Below, piece by piece: positions 6,897 through 42,793 of a stretch of 47,009 bases of DNA. The DNA is from a virus, in IMG/VR virus record IMGVR_UViG_3300036770_003647, positions 1 to 47,009 of that record; one strand, 5' to 3'. Numbering within the stretch: the first letter of the stretch is position 1; each line of letters begins with the position of its first letter. Made by a program: the position numbers and the translations under genes. Below the pieces are notes generated by a model. It worked only from the letters and a program-made list of their open reading frames with translations, did no database searches and was not told the DNA's origin.

Positions 6897-7436
6897 TTAT
6901 CCGCGTGTTTGTAATTCCGCTTTTCTTTTTGCGTTTAATTCACGATTTCGCATTGCGATTTCGTTTTTAGACATTTTTTTAGGCGTAGAATTTTTCAAGT
7001 TACAAATTCTAATCAATGCAAAAAGTCTATTTAAATGCCAAGTTTCGCATTCAAACGGTATGTTAAAAGTAACCATCCAATAATAAATTAATTCAGATGT
7101 TATTACTTCTGCTTTACCTCGTTTTTCTGGCATAACACCAAAAGTTGTTGCCGATCTTTTAGCGTCTATGTACTCATTTATTTCTTGAATGTTTTGATTT
7201 GATAGTCTTAAAAGAATTTCATTAGAACATTCATCAATTATCATAGCTTTTATATAACCATAAATTTCTTCTGGTGTTTTTTTGTCATTGTTCAAAAAAG
7301 GTTTTTCAAATTCTGACTCCCATTTTGACAGTGAGACCAGAGAATGCTCAAGTTTTAAAACAACGTCGTCTTGCGATTCAAACTCTTCAGTTGATTCGTT
7401 AAAGAATTCGTCGCCTTTGATAATTATTGTAAGCAT
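6897..7436 (-). CDS. Tail assembly chaperone
   Basis: A 179-residue protein expected to coat the tape measure during tail assembly. Recognisable family features are the N-terminal strand with LxLEHSLVSLSKWESEFEKP, then ITSELIYYWMVTFNIPFECE and TWHLNRLFALIRICNLKN, then a basic tail with KKMSKNEIAMRNRELNAKRK. These are typical of single-ORF chaperones of Gram-positive siphoviruses. I see no slippery heptamer near the 3' end, and the next gene is a tail-tube paralog, so a frameshifted long form is not evident. It sits between the two tail-tube genes. Confidence 0.8.
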   Translation of the reverse strand: MLTIIIKGDEFFNESTEEFESQDDVVLKLEHSLVSLSKWESEFEKPFLNNDKKTPEEIYGYIKAMIIDECSNEILLRLSNQNIQEINEYIDAKRSATTFGVMPEKRGKAEVITSELIYYWMVTFNIPFECETWHLNRLFALIRICNLKNSTPKKMSKNEIAMRNRELNAKRKAELQTRG

Positions 7437-28768: not shown

Positions 28769-28933
28769 TTATTCTGTTACGGATCTAAAACAAACACTCA
28801 AGTCAAATAAGTTCGACTCAATTCCAGCTAAATCCGTTTCACTTATACCTTTTTCGCGCATAATCTCTATTAGTTTATACACTTCAATTTTCTTTGAATG
28901 AAACTCTTCTTTTACTTTTTCGATATCCTTCAT
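28769..28933 (-). CDS. Small helical protein of unknown function
   Basis: A 54-residue protein from ATG 28933 (GGAGAA upstream): MKDIEKVKEEFHSKKIEVYK, then LIEIMREKGISETDLAGIES and a C-terminal NLFDLSVCFRSVTE. It looks like a two-helix, charged protein. The GISETDLAGIE stretch loosely resembles an HTH turn but is too short to call. It has promoter P3 directly upstream and a terminator after it. Confidence 0.7.
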   Translation of the reverse strand: MKDIEKVKEEFHSKKIEVYKLIEIMREKGISETDLAGIESNLFDLSVCFRSVTE

Positions 28934-28963
28934 TATTATTCTCCATTAATTTGTTGTTTACTT

Positions 28964-28992
28964 CCTATTATATACGTTGTCTATTTTGCGAG
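28964..28992 (-). promoter_or_regulatory. Early promoter P3
   Basis: Minus strand: CTCGCA, AAATAG, ACAACGTATATAATAGG. It begins 1-2 nt after the 3' end of tRNA-Met and drives the 54-residue gene. Confidence 0.75.
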
Positions 28993-29066
28993 TGGGACGA
29001 GTGGGACTTGAACCCACGACCAAGGCATTATGAGTGCCACGCTCTAACCGACTGAGCTATCGTCCC
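28993..29066 (-). tRNA. tRNA-Met(CAT) (or Ile2-type)
   Basis: The acceptor stem GGGACGA/TCGTCCC is fully paired, so it is not an initiator tRNA. The D arm has GCTC...GAGC, the anticodon loop is CTCATAA with CAT, and the T arm is GTGGG-TTCAAGT-CCCAC. No CCA is encoded. CAT can be elongator Met or, after lysidine modification, Ile for AUA. Confidence 0.92.
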
Positions 29067-29071
29067 GTGTT

Positions 29072-29147
29072 TGGTGAGCCAGACGGGAATTGAACCCGCG
29101 ACCTGCATTTTATAAGAATGCTACTCTAACCACTGAGTTACTGGCTC
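29072..29147 (-). tRNA. tRNA-Ile(TAT)
   Basis: Acceptor GAGCCAG/CTGGCTC, D arm ACTC...GAGT, anticodon stem GCATT/AATGC with loop CTTATAA (anticodon TAT, reading AUA), T arm GCGGG-TTCAATT-CCCGT, discriminator A and an encoded CCA. A UAU anticodon is uncommon, since bacteria mostly read AUA with lysidine-modified CAU. Confidence 0.92.
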
Positions 29148-29154
29148 ATTTCCG

Positions 29155-29227
29155 TGCTCCCTCAGGGGCTCGAACCCTGGACCAACGGATTAAAAGTCCG
29201 CTGCTCTACCGACTGAGCTAAAGGAGC
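29155..29227 (-). tRNA. tRNA-Lys(TTT)
   Basis: Acceptor GCTCCTT/AGGGAGC, D arm GCTC...GAGC, anticodon stem GCGGA/TCCGT with loop CTTTTAA (TTT), T arm CAGGG-TTCGAGC-CCCTG. No CCA encoded. It begins 3-4 nt after the duplicated terminator region. Confidence 0.95.
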
Positions 29228-29229
29228 TA

Positions 29230-29275
29230 GGTATAAAGGTAAAAAAAAGAAAACCCGTGCTTTTACACACGGATA
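29230..29275 (-). terminator. Intrinsic terminator (copy 2 of a duplicated terminator)
   Basis: Minus strand: CCGTG, TGTAAAAG loop, CACGG, then GTTTTCTTTTTTTT. It lies between the 67-residue gene and the tRNA-Lys/Ile/Met run, so the tRNAs depend on read-through or an unseen promoter. Confidence 0.75.
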
Positions 29276-29287
29276 ATCTTTTTAATA

Positions 29288-29491
29288 TCAACTATGAACT
29301 CTTGAATTGAACAATTTCATTTCGATCTCGTCCAGCATCACCTTCATCTCTTCAATGTCATCCATCAAATTCAGCAACTCAGTGCGCAGCAATTTTTCGC
29401 TACGTACTTTAGTTTGAATTCGATCAATCTCAGCATTCAGAGCGTTGACAAAACGCTTTAGAATTTCTCTTGTTTCTGCTTCAACTATCAT
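29288..29491 (-). CDS. Small coiled-coil protein
   Basis: A 67-residue protein: MIVEAETREILKRFVNALNA followed by EIDRIQTKVRSEKLLRTELL and LMDDIEEMKVMLDEIEMKLF. Leu/Ile heptads run through the whole chain, so it should be a long helix or dimeric coiled coil. Codons are C-ending, like the capsid gene, suggesting high expression. The binding site is GGAGG. It has its own promoter (P4). Unknown function. Confidence 0.75.
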   Translation of the reverse strand: MIVEAETREILKRFVNALNAEIDRIQTKVRSEKLLRTELLNLMDDIEEMKVMLDEIEMKLFNSRVHS

Positions 29492-29515
29492 TATTCCTCC
29501 ATTAAGTTAATACTT

Positions 29516-29544
29516 CCTATTATAGGCATTGTATAGTTTGCGAA
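29516..29544 (-). promoter_or_regulatory. Early promoter P4
   Basis: Minus strand: TTCGCA, AACTAT, ACAATGCCTATAATAGG. It starts on the base after the TAG stop of the upstream gene and drives the coiled-coil gene. Confidence 0.75.
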
Positions 29545-29841
29545 CTAAAATGGATTGCGAATATCATTGAACTCGACAAGTTCTAAGAACTCGACAGTAT
29601 TATTATATGCAATAATTGCGTCTTCAGTTAGATGTTCGATAACAGGCTCGAGTAAATCCATAAGAGCTTTTTCGCGAGTTTGCATAATACTTAAATTTGT
29701 ATTGTAGGTTGTAACGGCGTCCGCAAAAGAATGAAAACGCTTTTTAATGAGTTTAATTGCAAAATATCCAGTTACAGTAGAGCCAATAAAAAAACCATTT
29801 GTAAAAATTTGAAATCCTCGTAAATATTTTAACTCACGCAT
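29545..29841 (-). CDS. Small membrane-associated protein
   Basis: A 98-residue protein. MRELKYLRGFQIFTNGFFIG is followed by STVTGYFAIKLI, giving one probable membrane segment (about 10-30), then a basic KKRFHSF and an acidic, helical soluble tail (ALMDLLEPVIEHLTEDAIIA). The start ATG 29841 has AAGGAGGGT. It has its own promoter P5. Function unknown. Confidence 0.7.
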   Translation of the reverse strand: MRELKYLRGFQIFTNGFFIGSTVTGYFAIKLIKKRFHSFADAVTTYNTNLSIMQTREKALMDLLEPVIEHLTEDAIIAYNNTVEFLELVEFNDIRNPF

Positions 29842-29863
29842 AGACCCTCCTTATTTGGTATCT

Positions 29864-29890
29864 CTATTATAGGCGTTGTAATCTCGCCAG
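29864..29890 (-). promoter_or_regulatory. Early promoter P5
   Basis: Minus strand: GAGATT, ACAACGCCTATAATAGAG, with a perfect TATAAT. The upstream box is CCTGGC instead of CTCGCA. Confidence 0.65.
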
Positions 29891-29902
29891 GTTTATATTT
29901 AG

Positions 29903-29975
29903 TACCTGTGGTGGGATTCGAACCCACGCTTGAAGGATTTTAAGTCCTCTGCCTCTGCCGCTGGGCTACACAGGC
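29903..29975 (-). tRNA. tRNA-Leu(TAA) with a short variable loop
   Basis: Acceptor GCCTGTG/CACAGGT (G-U end pair), D arm GCCC...AGGC, anticodon stem GAGGA/TCCTT with loop CTTAAAA (anticodon TAA, UUA codon), T arm GTGGG-TTCGAAT-CCCAC. The variable region is only CAAGC, five bases, while bacterial tRNA-Leu normally has a long variable arm. It lies 4-5 nt after pseudoknot element A. Confidence 0.85.
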
Positions 29976-29980
29976 ATAAC

Positions 29981-30007
29981 GGGTAGTTTTAAGACATACC
30001 CAGGTCT
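29981..30007 (-). ncRNA. Repeated pseudoknot element, copy A
   Basis: Minus strand: stem AGAC/GTCT, loop CTGGGTAT, then TAAAACT and ACCC, which can pair with GGGT in the loop. It lies right after the lysozyme-like gene and just before tRNA-Leu. See copies B, C and D: the stem differs but stays paired, and the loop/tail pair changes together. Confidence 0.7.
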
Positions 30008-30014
30008 GTAAATA

Positions 30015-30590
30015 TCAGTCACCCCAAGTGGTTCCTGAAAAACGCCATGGTTTCCACCCAGAAGTTTCCCATAAGCGTAAAGCAAATGTAAGATTATTCT
30101 GGGCTGAAAACATATCGTTGGGATGCGACCACCCCATGTCAGCTAACCACTTTGAATGCACTTTATTAATTTGAGTGAGGCCGGCGTCAGCCCCATTCCA
30201 AGCGTCAGTTTGGCACCTTGACTCGCGCCAAATAACTTGCTGTAAATACTTCCATTCTTCCTCGGGCCAGCCCACGGAAATAGCGAGATCGTGATATTCA
30301 CCGCATTTGCCGTAGGTTGATCGAGCCAACTCCGTCCAGTCAACACCAGAAAGATCCGGCATTGTTGTGGTCGTAGTGGTTGTGCTAGTTGTACTTGTGG
30401 TTACTGGATTAAAAGAAATGCTCTTTACCTCAATCGGCGGCAAATTTGGCTTTTCATTATCATTACCAAAATCTGCCATTGCGGCACTAACACTCCAAAT
30501 AATAATTACAATAAACACAAAGTAACATATAACAATAAAAAGGCCAGATTTTTTATGCGCTAATTTATTGAACTTATTAAAATAGTCCAT
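30015..30590 (-). CDS. Membrane-anchored lysozyme/transglycosylase-like protein
   Basis: A 191-residue protein. One membrane segment near the N-terminus (residues about 17-40, SGLFIVICYFVFIVIIIWSV), then a Thr/Ser linker (TTSTTSTTTTTTT), then a lysozyme-like SLT-type domain (about 85-191): QQVIWRESRCQTDAWNG with the catalytic Glu in WRES, and ADAGLTQINKVHSKW with the GLxQIN motif. It should sit outside the membrane, tethered. It is coded in the tRNA cluster, far from the endolysin, so it may act at a different stage than lysis. The ribosome binding site is AAGGAGAG. Confidence 0.85.
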   Translation of the reverse strand: MDYFNKFNKLAHKKSGLFIVICYFVFIVIIIWSVSAAMADFGNDNEKPNLPPIEVKSISFNPVTTSTTSTTTTTTTMPDLSGVDWTELARSTYGKCGEYHDLAISVGWPEEEWKYLQQVIWRESRCQTDAWNGADAGLTQINKVHSKWLADMGWSHPNDMFSAQNNLTFALRLWETSGWKPWRFSGTTWGD

Positions 30591-30655
30591 GAACTCTCCT
30601 TCATCAGTACAGTTTTTTGGGCCAAATAAATTTTGACATATAAATCTAATTTTGT

Positions 30656-30802
30656 CTATCGACGGTTGCTTTTGATAACGGATCGAATTTGCTTAATCAC
30701 AATAATCAAGCAAACACCAATAAAAACGGTAGCTAAAACAGCCGTCAGGTCCCAATCTGTAATCATTTCGCAACGAACTCCATTAAGTCCGCAGTCTTCC
30801 AT
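30656..30802 (-). CDS. Small single-span membrane protein (holin-like?)
   Basis: A 48-residue protein from ATG 30802 with GGAAAGG upstream: MEDCGLNGVRCEMITDWDLT, one hydrophobic stretch ending VFIGVCLIIVIKQI, and a basic C-terminus RSVIKSNRR. This is an N-out, C-in topology by the positive-inside rule. Two cysteines lie in the N-terminal part. It directly precedes the anchored lysozyme-like gene, so it may be its partner or a pinholin-like protein (inference). Confidence 0.7.
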   Translation of the reverse strand: MEDCGLNGVRCEMITDWDLTAVLATVFIGVCLIIVIKQIRSVIKSNRR

Positions 30803-30852
30803 TTTTACCTTTCCGGTGCTCTACTTCTGTTCGAGCTCCTATTAATATGGGG

Positions 30853-30978
30853 CGTGCGCCAGGGGAATTGAACCCCTGCTAACATAGTCCAAGAATATGT
30901 GGCGTCGGTTTAAAAGCCTCGGCAAATGATAACACGTGTTATCTACATCTCAGATAATGTGGCAATCCATGCGCGCAC
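30853..30978 (-). ncRNA. Atypical tRNA-like RNA (126 nt)
   Basis: The 3' part has a perfect T arm (AGGGG-TTCAATT-CCCCT) and its 3' strand GGCGCAC pairs with the 5' strand GTGCGC about 120 nt upstream, so acceptor and T arm look tRNA-like. The middle does not form a normal cloverleaf: there is a 3-bp D-like hairpin (TGG-ATTG-CCA), a 16-nt perfect palindrome GATAACACGTGTTATC, and only a weak anticodon-like arm with loop CTTGGAC. It may be a tRNA with an insertion, a very small tmRNA-like RNA, or a decoy. Pseudoknot element B abuts its 5' end. Confidence 0.55.
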
Positions 30979-31005
30979 AAGCAGTTTAGCGTCATACTCG
31001 GGACG
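30978..31005 (-). ncRNA. Repeated pseudoknot element, copy B
   Basis: Minus strand: stem CGTC/GACG, loop CCGAGTAT, then CTAAACTG and CTTG, able to pair with CGAG of the loop (one G-U). The pairing strand touches the 5' end of the tRNA-like RNA. The stem has changed at both sides relative to copies A, C and D while pairing is kept. Confidence 0.7.
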
Positions 31006-31024
31006 TTCCCTGGCAGATGGGAAA

Positions 31025-31276
31025 TCAAATATCATTATCTAGGTTTTCACCAGGATAAAGATATATAAATCTAACATTCGGGTAACCCTTATTTGCAAAG
31101 TGCTTTCGGGCTTCTTCTTCGGTAAACGGATCCAATACGTTTTCGCTAGGATCGTCAACGTGATCAACGTCCACAAAATCGTACTCGTTATAATCATCCC
31201 CAACTTCAAGAATACCGTCCATAAACCTGGACCAATCATTGAAGAAACATAAATACTTTACCACTTGCTCTACCAT
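31025..31276 (-). CDS. Small acidic protein of unknown function
   Basis: An 83-residue, very acidic protein: MVEQVVKYLCFFNDWSRFMD, then EVGDDYNEYDFVDVDHVDDP and a C-terminal EEEARKHFANKGYPNVRFIY. Start ATG 31276 with AGGAGGGT upstream. Acidic phage proteins of this size often mimic DNA or bind host proteins, but nothing here proves that. It is followed at once by pseudoknot element B. Confidence 0.65.
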   Translation of the reverse strand: MVEQVVKYLCFFNDWSRFMDGILEVGDDYNEYDFVDVDHVDDPSENVLDPFTEEEARKHFANKGYPNVRFIYLYPGENLDNDI

Positions 31277-31295
31277 ATTACCCTCCTATTTGTTT

Positions 31296-31613
31296 TTATC
31301 GGTTCATTCTTGTAACAAGATTTAAAAAGTCAATTAAGACTTGGTCGGTTGCTTCGCCATCTGGTAAACGCTCGAGTTCAAACCAAATACTTTTAATAAT
31401 ATCATCTTTAAACTTTTTAGAGTTGTTTAAATGAAATTCAAGTTCTTCAGAAACGGTCTTCGCAATGTCTATTGCATCAGCCATATTACAATGTGTTATT
31501 TGTGCGATCTTTTCAGCGCATTCTGGATTATATTCCGGATTAACCGAATAATATGTTTTATTTGTTGGAGTTACTTTTTTAAAAACTGTAAAAATTATAT
31601 CGGTTGTTATCAT
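31296..31613 (-). CDS. Protein of unknown function
   Basis: A 105-residue helical protein: MITTDIIFTVFKKVTPTNKT, a middle CAEKIAQITHCNMADAIDIA, and C-terminal IWFELERLPDGEATDQVLID followed by FLNLVTRMNR. No recognised domain. Start 31613 has AAGGAGACC upstream, and pseudoknot element C lies in its leader. Confidence 0.65.
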   Translation of the reverse strand: MITTDIIFTVFKKVTPTNKTYYSVNPEYNPECAEKIAQITHCNMADAIDIAKTVSEELEFHLNNSKKFKDDIIKSIWFELERLPDGEATDQVLIDFLNLVTRMNR

Positions 31614-31647
31614 TACGGTCTCCTTGGTTAGTAAATATAAAAGAGGG

Positions 31648-31698
31648 TGAGCAGTTTTGCGACATACTCAGGTCGTTTTCCTATGGGGGGTAGGAAAA
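31648..31698 (-). ncRNA. Repeated pseudoknot element, copy C, with preceding hairpin
   Basis: Minus strand: a hairpin TTTTCCTA-CCCCCCA-TAGGAAAA (31675..31698) is followed by stem CGAC/GTCG with loop CTGAGTAT (31660..31675), then CAAAACTG and CTCA, which can pair with TGAG of the loop. It lies in the leader of the gene starting at 31613, directly after the stop of the previous gene. Confidence 0.7.
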
Positions 31699-31884
31699 TC
31701 AATATAGCTTTTTAGGCCACATAAATTTGGCGTAAGCAGAATATCCTCGGACAGAAGAACCTTCATCCGGAGAGTGCTTAAAACAGTACGGTTCATCATC
31801 ATAAATGATGTGATTCTCGCACCCATCCATTTCGCATTTGTGGCGAAATAAGCCATTTTCTGGATCATCTTTATACTCTGTCAT
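31699..31884 (-). CDS. Small zinc-finger-like protein
   Basis: A 61-residue protein: RHKCEMDGCENHIIYDDEPYCFKHSPDEG has C-x4-C-x2-H...C-x2-H, suited to one zinc ion (quoted in parts: KCEMDGCENH and PYCFKH). The C-terminus is SAYAKFMWPKKLY. Start 31884 has AAGGAGAT upstream. The leader of this gene carries pseudoknot element D and, before it, the large structured RNA. Function unknown. Confidence 0.7.
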   Translation of the reverse strand: MTEYKDDPENGLFRHKCEMDGCENHIIYDDEPYCFKHSPDEGSSVRGYSAYAKFMWPKKLY

Positions 31885-31910
31885 TATTATCTCCTTATTA
31901 GTTGCGAGGG

Positions 31911-31942
31911 TGAGCAGTTTAATAGAGACATACTCAGGTCTC
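31911..31942 (-). ncRNA. Repeated pseudoknot element, copy D
   Basis: Minus strand: stem GAGAC/GTCTC, loop CTGAGTAT, then TATTAAACTG and CTCA, able to pair with TGAG of the loop. It lies at the 3' end of the large structured RNA and 26 nt before the zinc-finger gene. Confidence 0.72.
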
Positions 31943-31944
31943 TA

Positions 31945-32182
31945 ACTTAAATGCGCACGAAACTGCGCGAAATAAGTGTCCTTACTTTAGCTAGAGTTTC
32001 CCCACTCTAAGCAGTGTGCCCTGGGACCGGTGCACCCGTAAGTAAGCGCTTTTTTGTTTAACCGAATATAACAGCGTCCCGTTACAATCGTGCTGAGTCT
32101 CCGTCTCAGTTTACCCCTGCCTTACTATATTTCAGGCAGGACGCACTAGGCTTAAAAGCTGTTTAATGTCGCCTAGTCGACA
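31945..32182 (-). ncRNA. Large structured non-coding RNA, family not recognised
   Basis: There is no reading frame of note in this 238-nt stretch, but on the minus strand it holds many helices. ACTAGGC/GCCTAGT comes first. GCGTCC/GGACGC encloses two hairpins (TGCC/GGCA and CTGAG-ACGGAGA-CTCAG). CTTACTT/AAGTAAG encloses GTGC/GCAC and TAGAGT-GGGGAA-ACTCTA. GCGCA/TGCGC comes last. Two multi-branch junctions in a row are unlikely by chance. It follows promoter P6 and a terminator-like hairpin, and precedes element D. I could not match it to tmRNA, RNase P RNA or a group I intron by eye. Confidence 0.7.
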
Positions 32183-32216
32183 AAAAAAAGAAAGACTATG
32201 AACTAATGTTCTATAG
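32182..32216 (-). terminator. Promoter-proximal terminator-like hairpin after P6
   Basis: Minus strand: CTAT(A)GAAC, ATTA, GTTCATAG, then TCTTTCTTTTTTTT. It ends a possible transcript of about 50 nt from P6, just before the structured RNA. The tail AGTCTTTCTTTTTTT is also found in the terminator after P9. Confidence 0.65.
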
Positions 32217-32238
32217 AATTTTGTTATTCTATCATCTT

Positions 32239-32266
32239 CCTATTATAAGCGTTGTAATTACTGCGA
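32239..32266 (-). promoter_or_regulatory. Early promoter P6
   Basis: Minus strand: CTCGCA, GTAATT, ACAACGCTTATAATAGG. It overlaps the last codons and the stop (TCG-CAG-TAA) of the gene at 32258. It should drive the structured RNA and the zinc-finger gene if the hairpin at 32182..32216 is read through. Confidence 0.78.
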
Positions 32267-32587
32267 GGCGTCTTTCTGACCGATAGACTCGATATAATCG
32301 CACCATTCGTTAACACTATTGTCCGCAAGAACAAACTGCTCAAGGAACACTCGTCGAGAATAGCAACGAATATTGTCACCCATCTTAGTCATGAAGAAAC
32401 CGGGGTAAACGCGCCAGATATTAGGCACCAAACGGCGATCGACATAAATAAACTTTGTCTTGCTGGTGTCATCCTTCTCGCGCAACTCTCCGATAAGAGG
32501 AGCGATTTCCGCAATATTATCCTCAGTAATTTCAATGGCCTCAACCCGGAAAGGCTTTCGGACATATGAATTGTATTCAATGGTCAT
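32258..32587 (-). CDS. Conserved phage protein of unknown function
   Basis: A 109-residue protein: YVRKPFRVEAIEITEDNIAE, FIYVDRRLVPNIWRVYPGFF, MTKMGDNIRCYSRRVFLEQF. The PGFxMTxMGDNIRCYSxRxFxEQFV pattern is common in Gram-positive phages, and I know of no assigned role. Codons are C-ending, suggesting high expression. It follows the putative SSB gene with a 14-nt gap. Confidence 0.65.
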   Translation of the reverse strand: MTIEYNSYVRKPFRVEAIEITEDNIAEIAPLIGELREKDDTSKTKFIYVDRRLVPNIWRVYPGFFMTKMGDNIRCYSRRVFLEQFVLADNSVNEWCDYIESIGQKDASQ

Positions 32588-32601
32588 TTTATTCTCCTTT
32601 T

Positions 32602-33072
32602 TTATTCTTCATCATCGTCGGCCAATAGACCGCCGTACTTTTGCTCAAGTGCGTCTTCTTCGATAGTAACGAACATCGACTGCAAATATGCCTTAATGCC
32701 CCGCTTGTTGTTAACGTCCCACTCGTATCCACGAGCAATTAAGTCAACCATAGCGATATCAGCATAGTCAAGAGTTTCTACCATCTCTTCACTAACTGGC
32801 GTTCTAGTAGTTGAAGTCAACATAAAAATCCTAGGCGGACGGTTTTTAAAGTTTACAGCAACAGAAATATAAGGCGTCGGCTCGTCTTCAGGCTCTCGTG
32901 GCTTTAACCACTTAACGTTCCAACCATCTTTTTCCATTTGCTCGGCAACATCGGTAGACAAAATAACGCTAAAGTTTCGATCTCCAGCGCGATTGTACTT
33001 GTCCTCCTTGCCCGCAAAGTTTTTAAATATTAACTGCGCATCTTCTACCATAAATGTCTTAGGTTCAGGCAT
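32602..33072 (-). CDS. Putative single-stranded DNA-binding protein
   Basis: A 156-residue protein: VEDAQLIFKNFAGKEDKYNR, GDRNFSVILSTDVAEQMEKD, GWNVKWLKPREPEDEPTPYI, VNFKNRPPRIFMLTSTTRTP, and an acidic C-terminus ADDDEE, as in SSB proteins. The conserved A-x-I-x-F-x-NFAG...NR-x-G-x-RNF pattern is a phage family often predicted to be SSB. It lies just before the polymerase gene set and has highly expressed-type codons. Confidence 0.65.
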   Translation of the reverse strand: MPEPKTFMVEDAQLIFKNFAGKEDKYNRAGDRNFSVILSTDVAEQMEKDGWNVKWLKPREPEDEPTPYISVAVNFKNRPPRIFMLTSTTRTPVSEEMVETLDYADIAMVDLIARGYEWDVNNKRGIKAYLQSMFVTIEEDALEQKYGGLLADDDEE

Positions 33073-42765: not shown

Positions 42766-42793
42766 CTATTATATGCGTTGCAGATTCCGCGAA
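42766..42793 (-). promoter_or_regulatory. Early promoter P11
   Basis: Minus strand: TTCGCG, GAATCT, GCAACGCATATAATAG. Drives the 25-residue microprotein and abuts the terminator of the previous cassette. Confidence 0.72.

Follow-up and report, generated by a model that had tools for sequence, protein, structure and literature searches.

Several described RNA systems are built on small pseudoknots. The leader of gene 32 in phages T4 and T2, a gene for a single-stranded DNA (ssDNA)-binding protein, reportedly carries a gene-specific H-type pseudoknot in its mRNA whose first loop (L1) is a single base. The antitoxins of type III toxin-antitoxin systems are small pseudoknots as well, and phages can carry mimics of them. 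Pseudoknots that direct recoding, such as those for -1 frameshifting in beet western yellows virus and stop codon readthrough in Moloney murine leukemia virus (Mo-MuLV), are compact H-type structures with very short L1 and L2 loops and an A-rich L3, and they lie 5-9 nucleotides (nt) from the decoding site, which is a stop codon in Mo-MuLV (PMC7618472; PMC3835772); with their usual 5-9 nt spacer, frameshift pseudoknots are lodged at the mRNA entry of the ribosome (PMC7618472). The STAXI RNA motif (RF01728) is a pseudoknot unit linked to mobile DNA (PMC2864571). Here we describe a pseudoknot of ~28 nt that is present in four copies on the minus strand of a 47,009-base virus record (IMG/VR record IMGVR_UViG_3300036770_003647, positions 1 to 47,009; hereafter the window) and that recurs in phages of many bacterial groups, often a few nucleotides past a stop codon.

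This element does not belong to a known RNA family. No Rfam 15 family overlapped any of the four copies at gathering score, and none matched at E<=10 within positions 28900-33000, in keeping with the original prediction, made by eye, that the loop does not match preQ1-I. RF01728 likewise had no match in the window. Full-text searches for the core sequence together with topic searches found nothing on the motif in a literature from which most subscription papers fell outside the search. The fold type is already known; what appears to be new is the family, together with the rule for its position and its spread.

All four minus-strand copies that had been predicted are present. The pattern GTAT-N4-12-AAACTRC matched exactly these four minus-strand sites and nothing on the plus strand, with a single match in the reversed control. 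A covariance model trained with copies A-C included, but not copy D, matched the same four, with the best further match in the window at E=0.42, confirming that the window holds four copies and no more. Copy A (29980..30007, E=6e-9) forms a first helix (P1) of AGAC/GTCT and a second helix (P2) of GGGTA/TACCC plus a U.G pair; it is one base longer than reported earlier, when its boundary was put at 29981, and lies 7 nt past the stop codon of a 191-aa gene and 4 nt ahead of a tRNA-Leu. The coordinates predicted for the other copies were exact. Copy B (30978..31005, E=3e-8) pairs CGTC/GACG in P1 and CGAGTA/TGCTTG in P2; its stop codon is 19 nt upstream, the intervening space is filled by an abutting TTCCC/GGGAA hairpin (31006..31023, minus strand), and the copy overlaps the first base of a tRNA-like RNA. 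Copy C (31648..31675, E=1e-10; P1 CGAC/GTCG, P2 TGAGTA/TGCTCA) lies 23 nt past the stop codon of a 61-aa gene, with a TTTTCCTA/TAGGAAAA hairpin (31676..31698, minus strand) in between and a 105-aa gene downstream. Copy D (31911..31942, E=2e-6; P1 GAGAC/GTCTC, P2 TGAGTA/TGCTCA) has a P1 that can be extended to 7 base pairs (bp; TAGAGAC/GTCTCTA), a Pistol self-cleaving ribozyme upstream and the 61-aa gene downstream.

The P1 stems therefore differ yet pair as originally described. The loop-tail pairing is also present and covarying, but its length had been understated, since P2 comprises five or six pairs once the conserved A-U pair beside L2 is counted. From 5' to 3', the element consists of the P1 5' strand, a C, the six-base P2 5' strand, a U, the P1 3' strand, a spacer ending in AAAC and the P2 3' strand; P1 measures 4-7 bp, L1 is the single base C, P2 measures 5-6 bp, L2 is one base (U or A) and the tail reads nnAAAC. 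When the four copies were folded thermodynamically without pseudoknots, three gave the P2 hairpin and one gave the P1 hairpin, because a folding program must pick one of two interlocked helices. The A-rich L3 (AAAC) resembles that of pseudoknots whose stem 1/loop 3 triplex resists unwinding, and we infer a P1/L3 minor-groove triplex in this element.

Evidence for both helices that does not depend on an alignment came from scans of sequence collections with an exact pattern fixing only loop and tail (CTGAGTAT, a gap and AAACTGCTC). At least 120 viral stretches matched, and among the viral matches listed the unfixed flanks formed a P1 stem of at least 4 pairs, in many different sequences, in 108/123 occurrences. 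Matches to the same pattern in bacterial genomes were mostly due to chance, with P1 in 5/119. When P2 was changed on both strands so as to remain complementary (CTGGGTAT with CCC), P1 accompanied 91/124 of the matches listed. Single-strand P2 mutants, in contrast, had only 49 and 38 matches in the whole collection, with P1 in 5/49 and 0/38, respectively. The P1 stem thus accompanies a complementary P2, an association that provides direct evidence of a pseudoknot, and support for a compact H-type fold in each copy is strong.

A descriptor that required both helices and AAAC while leaving the loop and P2 sequences free found 246 places in 2.9 Mb of viral loci versus 7 in the reversed sequence, and it recovered P2 types that had not been searched for (GGACA/TGTCC, GGCCA/TGGCC and AAGCA/TGCTT); a relaxed version gave 398 matches versus 17 reversed. 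Across 65 diverse 28-base copies, both-sided changes occurred in 4/4 P1 pairs and 5/6 P2 pairs, and shifting the partner columns abolished the pairing. Since these rows were picked with the descriptor, the alignment illustrates covariation rather than proving it; the P2 collection scans do not depend on this selection. The consensus reads nnWC-C-URRGYA-U-GWnn-nn-AAAC-URCYYA, in which the L1 C, the AAAC and the A-U pair beside L2 are invariant; a G directly after P2, a potential partner of the L1 C, is almost absent (2%).

Homologs of the predicted element are found in many viral contigs and also in bacterial genomes. Fifty virus records chosen as motif carriers held 1-9 copies each. Its carriers are phages of actinobacteria, firmicutes, cyanobacteria and alphaproteobacteria and also include crAss-like phages and microviruses. 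Among annotated phages, verified copies were found in Roseobacter phage SIO1, Celeribacter P12053L and Paracoccus ParKuw1; in Lactobacillus phig1e and P185, thermophilic phage D6E, Geobacillus GR1 and Moorella MTATph1; in Corynebacterium phi673, Mycobacterium Labelle, Rhodococcus Trina, Microbacterium Count and Arthrobacter Molivia; and in Nostoc NMeng1, Synechococcus S-EIV1, a Kyanoviridae phage, crAss-like cr7_1 and three Microviridae. These phages were found with concatenated 28-mers, as a BLAST search with one long leader had found no match among annotated phages. None was verified in phages of beta- or gammaproteobacteria; the two candidate gammaproteobacterial 28-mer matches, in Aeromonas phiA050 and Erwinia Faunus, did not pass the structural descriptor, and no motif was found in E. 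coli genomes. The window virus itself likely has an actinobacterial host, because its terminase large subunit shares ~80% identity along its length with Streptomyces phage homologues. Because microviruses, which have few proteins, carry the motif, a dedicated phage-encoded protein partner is unlikely.

The genes neighboring the motif are diverse, including those for ribonucleotide reductase, holin, portal and capsid proteins, tRNAs and others, and nearly all copies are single, with only 4 tandem pairs within 200 nt among 371 copies. This distinguishes the motif from STAXI, which is built of two or three tandem units with UUCG loops, and also from the tandem repeats of type III antitoxin RNA. 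We considered whether the element counters type III toxin-antitoxin systems by acting as a decoy or by mimicking the antitoxin, given that its H-type size is similar to that of antitoxin pseudoknots and that phages can carry such mimics; however, the rarity of tandem pairs, together with a strict stop codon and strand rule that would be unexpected of a decoy, makes this explanation highly improbable.

This rule emerged when the positions of viral copies were compared with gene calls; since these were simple longest-open reading frame (ORF) calls and many contigs are related, the positional counts are indicative. The motif was present in 214/1190 own-strand gene-to-gene gaps (18%) versus 2/1256 gaps in which both neighbors lie on the other strand. 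P1 often begins 4-10 nt past a same-strand stop codon. The counts rise sharply at ~4 nt and peak at 5-7 nt: at distances of 2, 3, 4, 5, 6, 7 and 8 nt, they were 2, 4, 16, 35, 39, 27 and 14, with zero at 0 or 1 nt. This peak applies to roughly half of those copies for which an ORF end was called, and it persists irrespective of whether the next feature is a tRNA, a nearby gene or a distant one. Where the stop codon lies 13-40 nt upstream, as for copies B and C, an intervening hairpin was found in 24/58 cases versus 3.8 expected from shuffles. Gaps with the motif had a median length of 162 nt, compared with 41.5 nt for gaps without it. The element thus goes with the stop codon that ends the upstream gene and is not a leader of the downstream gene. 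As originally described, copy A directly precedes a tRNA-Leu, copy B a tRNA-like RNA, and copies C and D small genes, but the reading of the motif as a leader element calls for revision, since the motif tracks the upstream stop.

Several functions were examined in light of these positions. A promoter-proximal 5'-end element was rejected, since the upstream TAAATA boxes mostly represent a stop codon plus spacer; downstream, promoter-like sites were not more frequent in motif gaps than in control gaps (28% vs 25%). The element is not a terminator either, as it lacks a U tract and phage motif gaps seldom contain an intrinsic terminator (2% with the motif vs 5% without, a difference that is not significant). 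Readthrough or frameshift products were rejected because the open extensions after the stop are short (median of 8, 14 and 5 codons in the 0, -1 and +1 frames, respectively; n=103), and a phage arrest peptide was rejected because the C-termini ahead of the motif are diverse. The original prediction had also suggested a small riboswitch. A small H-type fold with conserved loop bases would suit a metabolite-binding RNA, but one-base loops offer little ligand room, phages carry several copies each, and no Rfam family matches. Furthermore, because the motif is tied to upstream stops and adjoins unrelated genes, tRNAs, promoters, terminators and convergent genes, we regard a riboswitch as very unlikely. 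The gene 32 pseudoknot differs in the same respect, since the present motif lies near many unrelated genes, usually after a stop codon, and its neighbors are not limited to an ssDNA-binding protein gene.

The positional peak invites comparison with the recoding pseudoknots, which the motif resembles in its compact fold, its very short L1 and L2, its A-rich L3 and its 5-7 nt distance from a stop codon. It differs from them in that no 0, -1 or +1 extension past the stop is conserved, in that it occurs at very many genes and before tRNAs, and in that its P1 and P2 sequences are free around a fixed core. The explanation we favor, albeit tentatively and at less than even confidence, is that the pseudoknot is a cis-acting RNA roadblock whose 5' side faces oncoming machines, chiefly a ribosome that is at the stop codon or beyond it. 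The knot would fold just past the end of the ORF, about as near as possible without being melted by a ribosome with the stop codon in its A site. Machines travelling in the 5'-to-3' direction would meet resistance, most likely ribosomes pausing at the stop, reading through it or drifting beyond it, and the following tRNA, structured RNA or gene would thereby be kept apart from the traffic on the upstream gene; no dedicated protein would be required. The covariation of both helices, the strand rule, the 4-10 nt stop spacing, the presence in microviruses and an enrichment at gene-to-tRNA junctions all support such a roadblock.

At these junctions the motif was found in 34/66 cases, compared with the 214/1190 gene-to-gene gaps noted above (Fisher p = 2e-9, computed with gap limits slightly different from those of these counts) and 3/87 tRNA-to-gene junctions. 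The tRNA began 2-6 nt after P2 in 25/36 tRNA cases. In the window, tRNA-Leu (TAA; 29902..29975, minus strand; ARAGORN and Rfam RF00005) lies directly downstream of copy A, and the tRNA-like RNA (30853..30978, minus strand) downstream of copy B. The latter was recognized from its sequence and fold (z=-1.95), with a GTGCGC/GCGCAC acceptor, a T-arm and an unusual middle; ARAGORN and Rfam did not call it, apart from a weak partial match to transfer-messenger RNA (tmRNA) in the T-arm. Its abnormal middle contains a GATAACAC/GTGTTATC palindrome.

Copies next to tRNAs and ribozymes also bear on the main rival to the ribosome roadblock, one of the roles listed in the original prediction, namely that the knot is an exonuclease-resistant RNA that halts a 5'-to-3' exoribonuclease such as RNase J on the upstream message and shields the downstream tRNA, gene or leader. 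The viral Xrn1-resistant RNAs (xrRNAs, coremin) are comparable in that they are small pseudoknotted elements for which a 5'-to-3' block would protect the downstream RNA, but they differ in fold and hosts, and for the phage motif exonuclease resistance is only proposed. The gene-to-tRNA enrichment would fit this rival, as would copies located downstream of a Pistol ribozyme. In the window, Pistol (32109..32182, minus strand; Rfam RF02679, 64.8 bits) lies 167 nt upstream of copy D; in the viral locus L269 it lies 56 nt upstream of a tandem pseudoknot pair, in L337 263 nt upstream of one copy and in L289 ~1.8 kb from a pseudoknot. Pistol was present in 4/50 motif-bearing records versus none in 149 kb of control viral loci; these are low counts, and L269 and L337 had been chosen for scanning on the ground that their copies sit far from a stop. 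In L337, positions 7250-7420 contain three successive pseudoknot-like units after Pistol, two of them variants (a nine-base loop and an AAAG tail). A different structured RNA, common to L061, L266 and L329 (CTCTTGTAAGTGTCCTAGGCAACGGCTTACAAGCG...), follows the pseudoknot in these loci and has no Rfam match.

The distribution of RNase J cuts both ways. It was found in most motif-bearing genomes checked, and an RNase J-like gene occurs in the three motif-bearing Pseudomonadota genomes and is missing from the beta- and gammaproteobacterial genomes checked, in partial parallel with the motif. However, RNase J was absent from the motif-bearing Aminicenantes genome G258, and crAss-like phages carry the motif, yet the five Bacteroidota genomes checked lack this enzyme. 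Moreover, tRNA-to-gene junctions, which are sites of new 5' ends, seldom carry the motif, and the motif follows the upstream stop also in cases with a distant next gene and is found between convergent genes as well. On balance, an exonuclease block seems unlikely, if less so than the other alternatives.

Convergent-gene cases, the stop-proximal site and the tRNAs starting 2-6 nt later would instead suit a 3'-end stabilizer, in which the knot blocks 3'-to-5' exonucleases and guards the upstream message, for example after RNase P removes the tRNA, much as repetitive extragenic palindromic (REP) elements do. The scarcity of terminators in phage motif gaps points the same way, within the limits of a non-significant difference. 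Against this, the knot stays on the downstream fragment in the Pistol and leader cases, and the conserved A-rich L3 is expected to boost resistance from the 5' side, so we consider a stabilizer quite unlikely. The intercistronic location and the tRNA neighbors could also reflect a processing signal that is read by a host endonuclease to separate cistrons and tRNAs; since the motif works in phages of many hosts, such a factor would need to be common. The helices vary freely, however, few loop bases are fixed, and no conserved unpaired site lies beside the knot beyond AAAC, which leaves a cleavage signal improbable.

A bacterial version of the element provided a second view of its relation to translation. 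In covariance-model searches at E<=0.01, the motif was found in 36/199 genomes of the phylum of an Oscillibacter metagenome-assembled genome (MAG), and at E<=5e-4 in 11/246 genomes of an actinobacterial phylum set, 2/299 Pseudomonadota and 8/192 genomes of the phylum of a Saccharibacteria MAG; the bacterial copies had no Rfam match at gathering score. In most Clostridia-type matches and several others, the motif follows a tiny ORF with a ribosome-binding site, whose peptide reads, for example, MTRKRWMLRAVAHCKEGC or MKRFMVPRVAHCGEGC, with a consensus of approximately (M)xRKR(Y/W/F)M(L/V)(R/P)(A/P/R)VAHCxxG[C/H]. Carriers include Bacillota, actinobacterial, Saccharibacteria-phylum and Aminicenantes genomes (loci L477-L480, L482-L493, L498, L503, L505, L507-L509, L513, L514 and L523). 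In 25 tiny ORFs the H, the C, the G and the final C or H were invariant while synonymous codons varied, so the peptide itself appears to be selected. No match to this peptide was found in Pfam or NCBIfam, and phage copies yielded no convincing case of a tiny ORF.

The distance between the last conserved codon and the inner P1 pair is exactly 7 nt in 22/29 matches to the peptide pattern (one ORF being counted twice, in L132 and L498) and in 22/25 of the tiny conserved ORFs, and the codon that follows is a stop or one of several sense codons. With the last conserved codon in the P site, the first pair would, by arithmetic, fall at approximately +11, near the mRNA entry. An exonuclease block leaves this codon-exact spacing unexplained, and a 3'-end stabilizer would be redundant here, since an intrinsic terminator is often located directly after the pseudoknot. 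The peptide possibly binds metal or stalls ribosomes. The copper-responsive upstream ORFs CruR/CutF, which are thought to stall ribosomes near copper genes, are likewise small and Cys-containing (PMC9426467), and 3/25 tiny ORFs adjoin a heavy-metal P-type ATPase gene. However, the tiny-ORF peptide is different and much shorter (VAHCxxG[C/H]), its pseudoknot lies at a fixed distance, and there is often no downstream gene on its strand.

The observations show a selected pseudoknot at the 3' edge of coding sequence; its role as a roadblock facing 5' is inferred. Of the machines that a roadblock could stop, we prefer the ribosome because the spacing peak resembles that of recoding pseudoknots and because the spacing in tiny ORFs is codon-exact. 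Three observations weigh against this reading: for roughly one third of viral copies, no ORF end was called in the 30 nt upstream; copy D and the copies of L269 and L337 are preceded by a Pistol ribozyme instead of directly by a gene; and ribosome function does not explain why none was verified in beta- and gammaproteobacterial phages. Our confidence is limited accordingly, since no single model covers every context.

Promoter-like TATAATAG boxes occur at other minus-strand gene boundaries in the window, including 32247 and 29871, and between these two the order is Pistol, a structured stretch, copy D, the 61-aa gene, copy C, two genes, copy B, the tRNA-like RNA, two ORFs, copy A and tRNA-Leu. 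If the two boxes are promoters, all four copies share one transcript between them, and Pistol presumably lies in the leader of the operon that bears them. Minus-strand -10 boxes near 42773, 40878, 32247, 29871, 29524, 28972, 28396 and 25556 form a repeated promoter-like block (approximately ACAAYGCNTATAATAG) at gene boundaries that are free of pseudoknots. The stretch from Pistol to copy D (31943-32108, minus strand) folds better than shuffled sequences (z = -2.6) and matches no Rfam family. With positions 31900-32260 as the query, a piece of 45 bases showed similarity to Cellulosimicrobium phage DS1.

The broadest proposal is a new class of cis-acting RNA: an end-of-gene pseudoknot in DNA phages of most bacterial phyla, ssDNA microviruses included, that would act on the ribosome at the stop codon and insulate tRNAs and structured RNAs, and whose bacterial counterpart would stall the ribosome jointly with a nascent HCxxG[C/H] peptide, possibly in response to copper or another metal. 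As a whole this proposal is possible but doubtful. The tiny bacterial ORF with its pseudoknot nonetheless suggests an undescribed family of ribosome-stalling peptides, and the 28-nt barrier could serve as a tool to insulate cistrons and tRNAs. For the phages themselves, a common RNA that follows a precise position rule and has no Rfam entry points to an undescribed selective pressure at the ends of genes, and it raises the testable question of what benefit a phage draws from a pseudoknot 5-7 nt past a stop codon.

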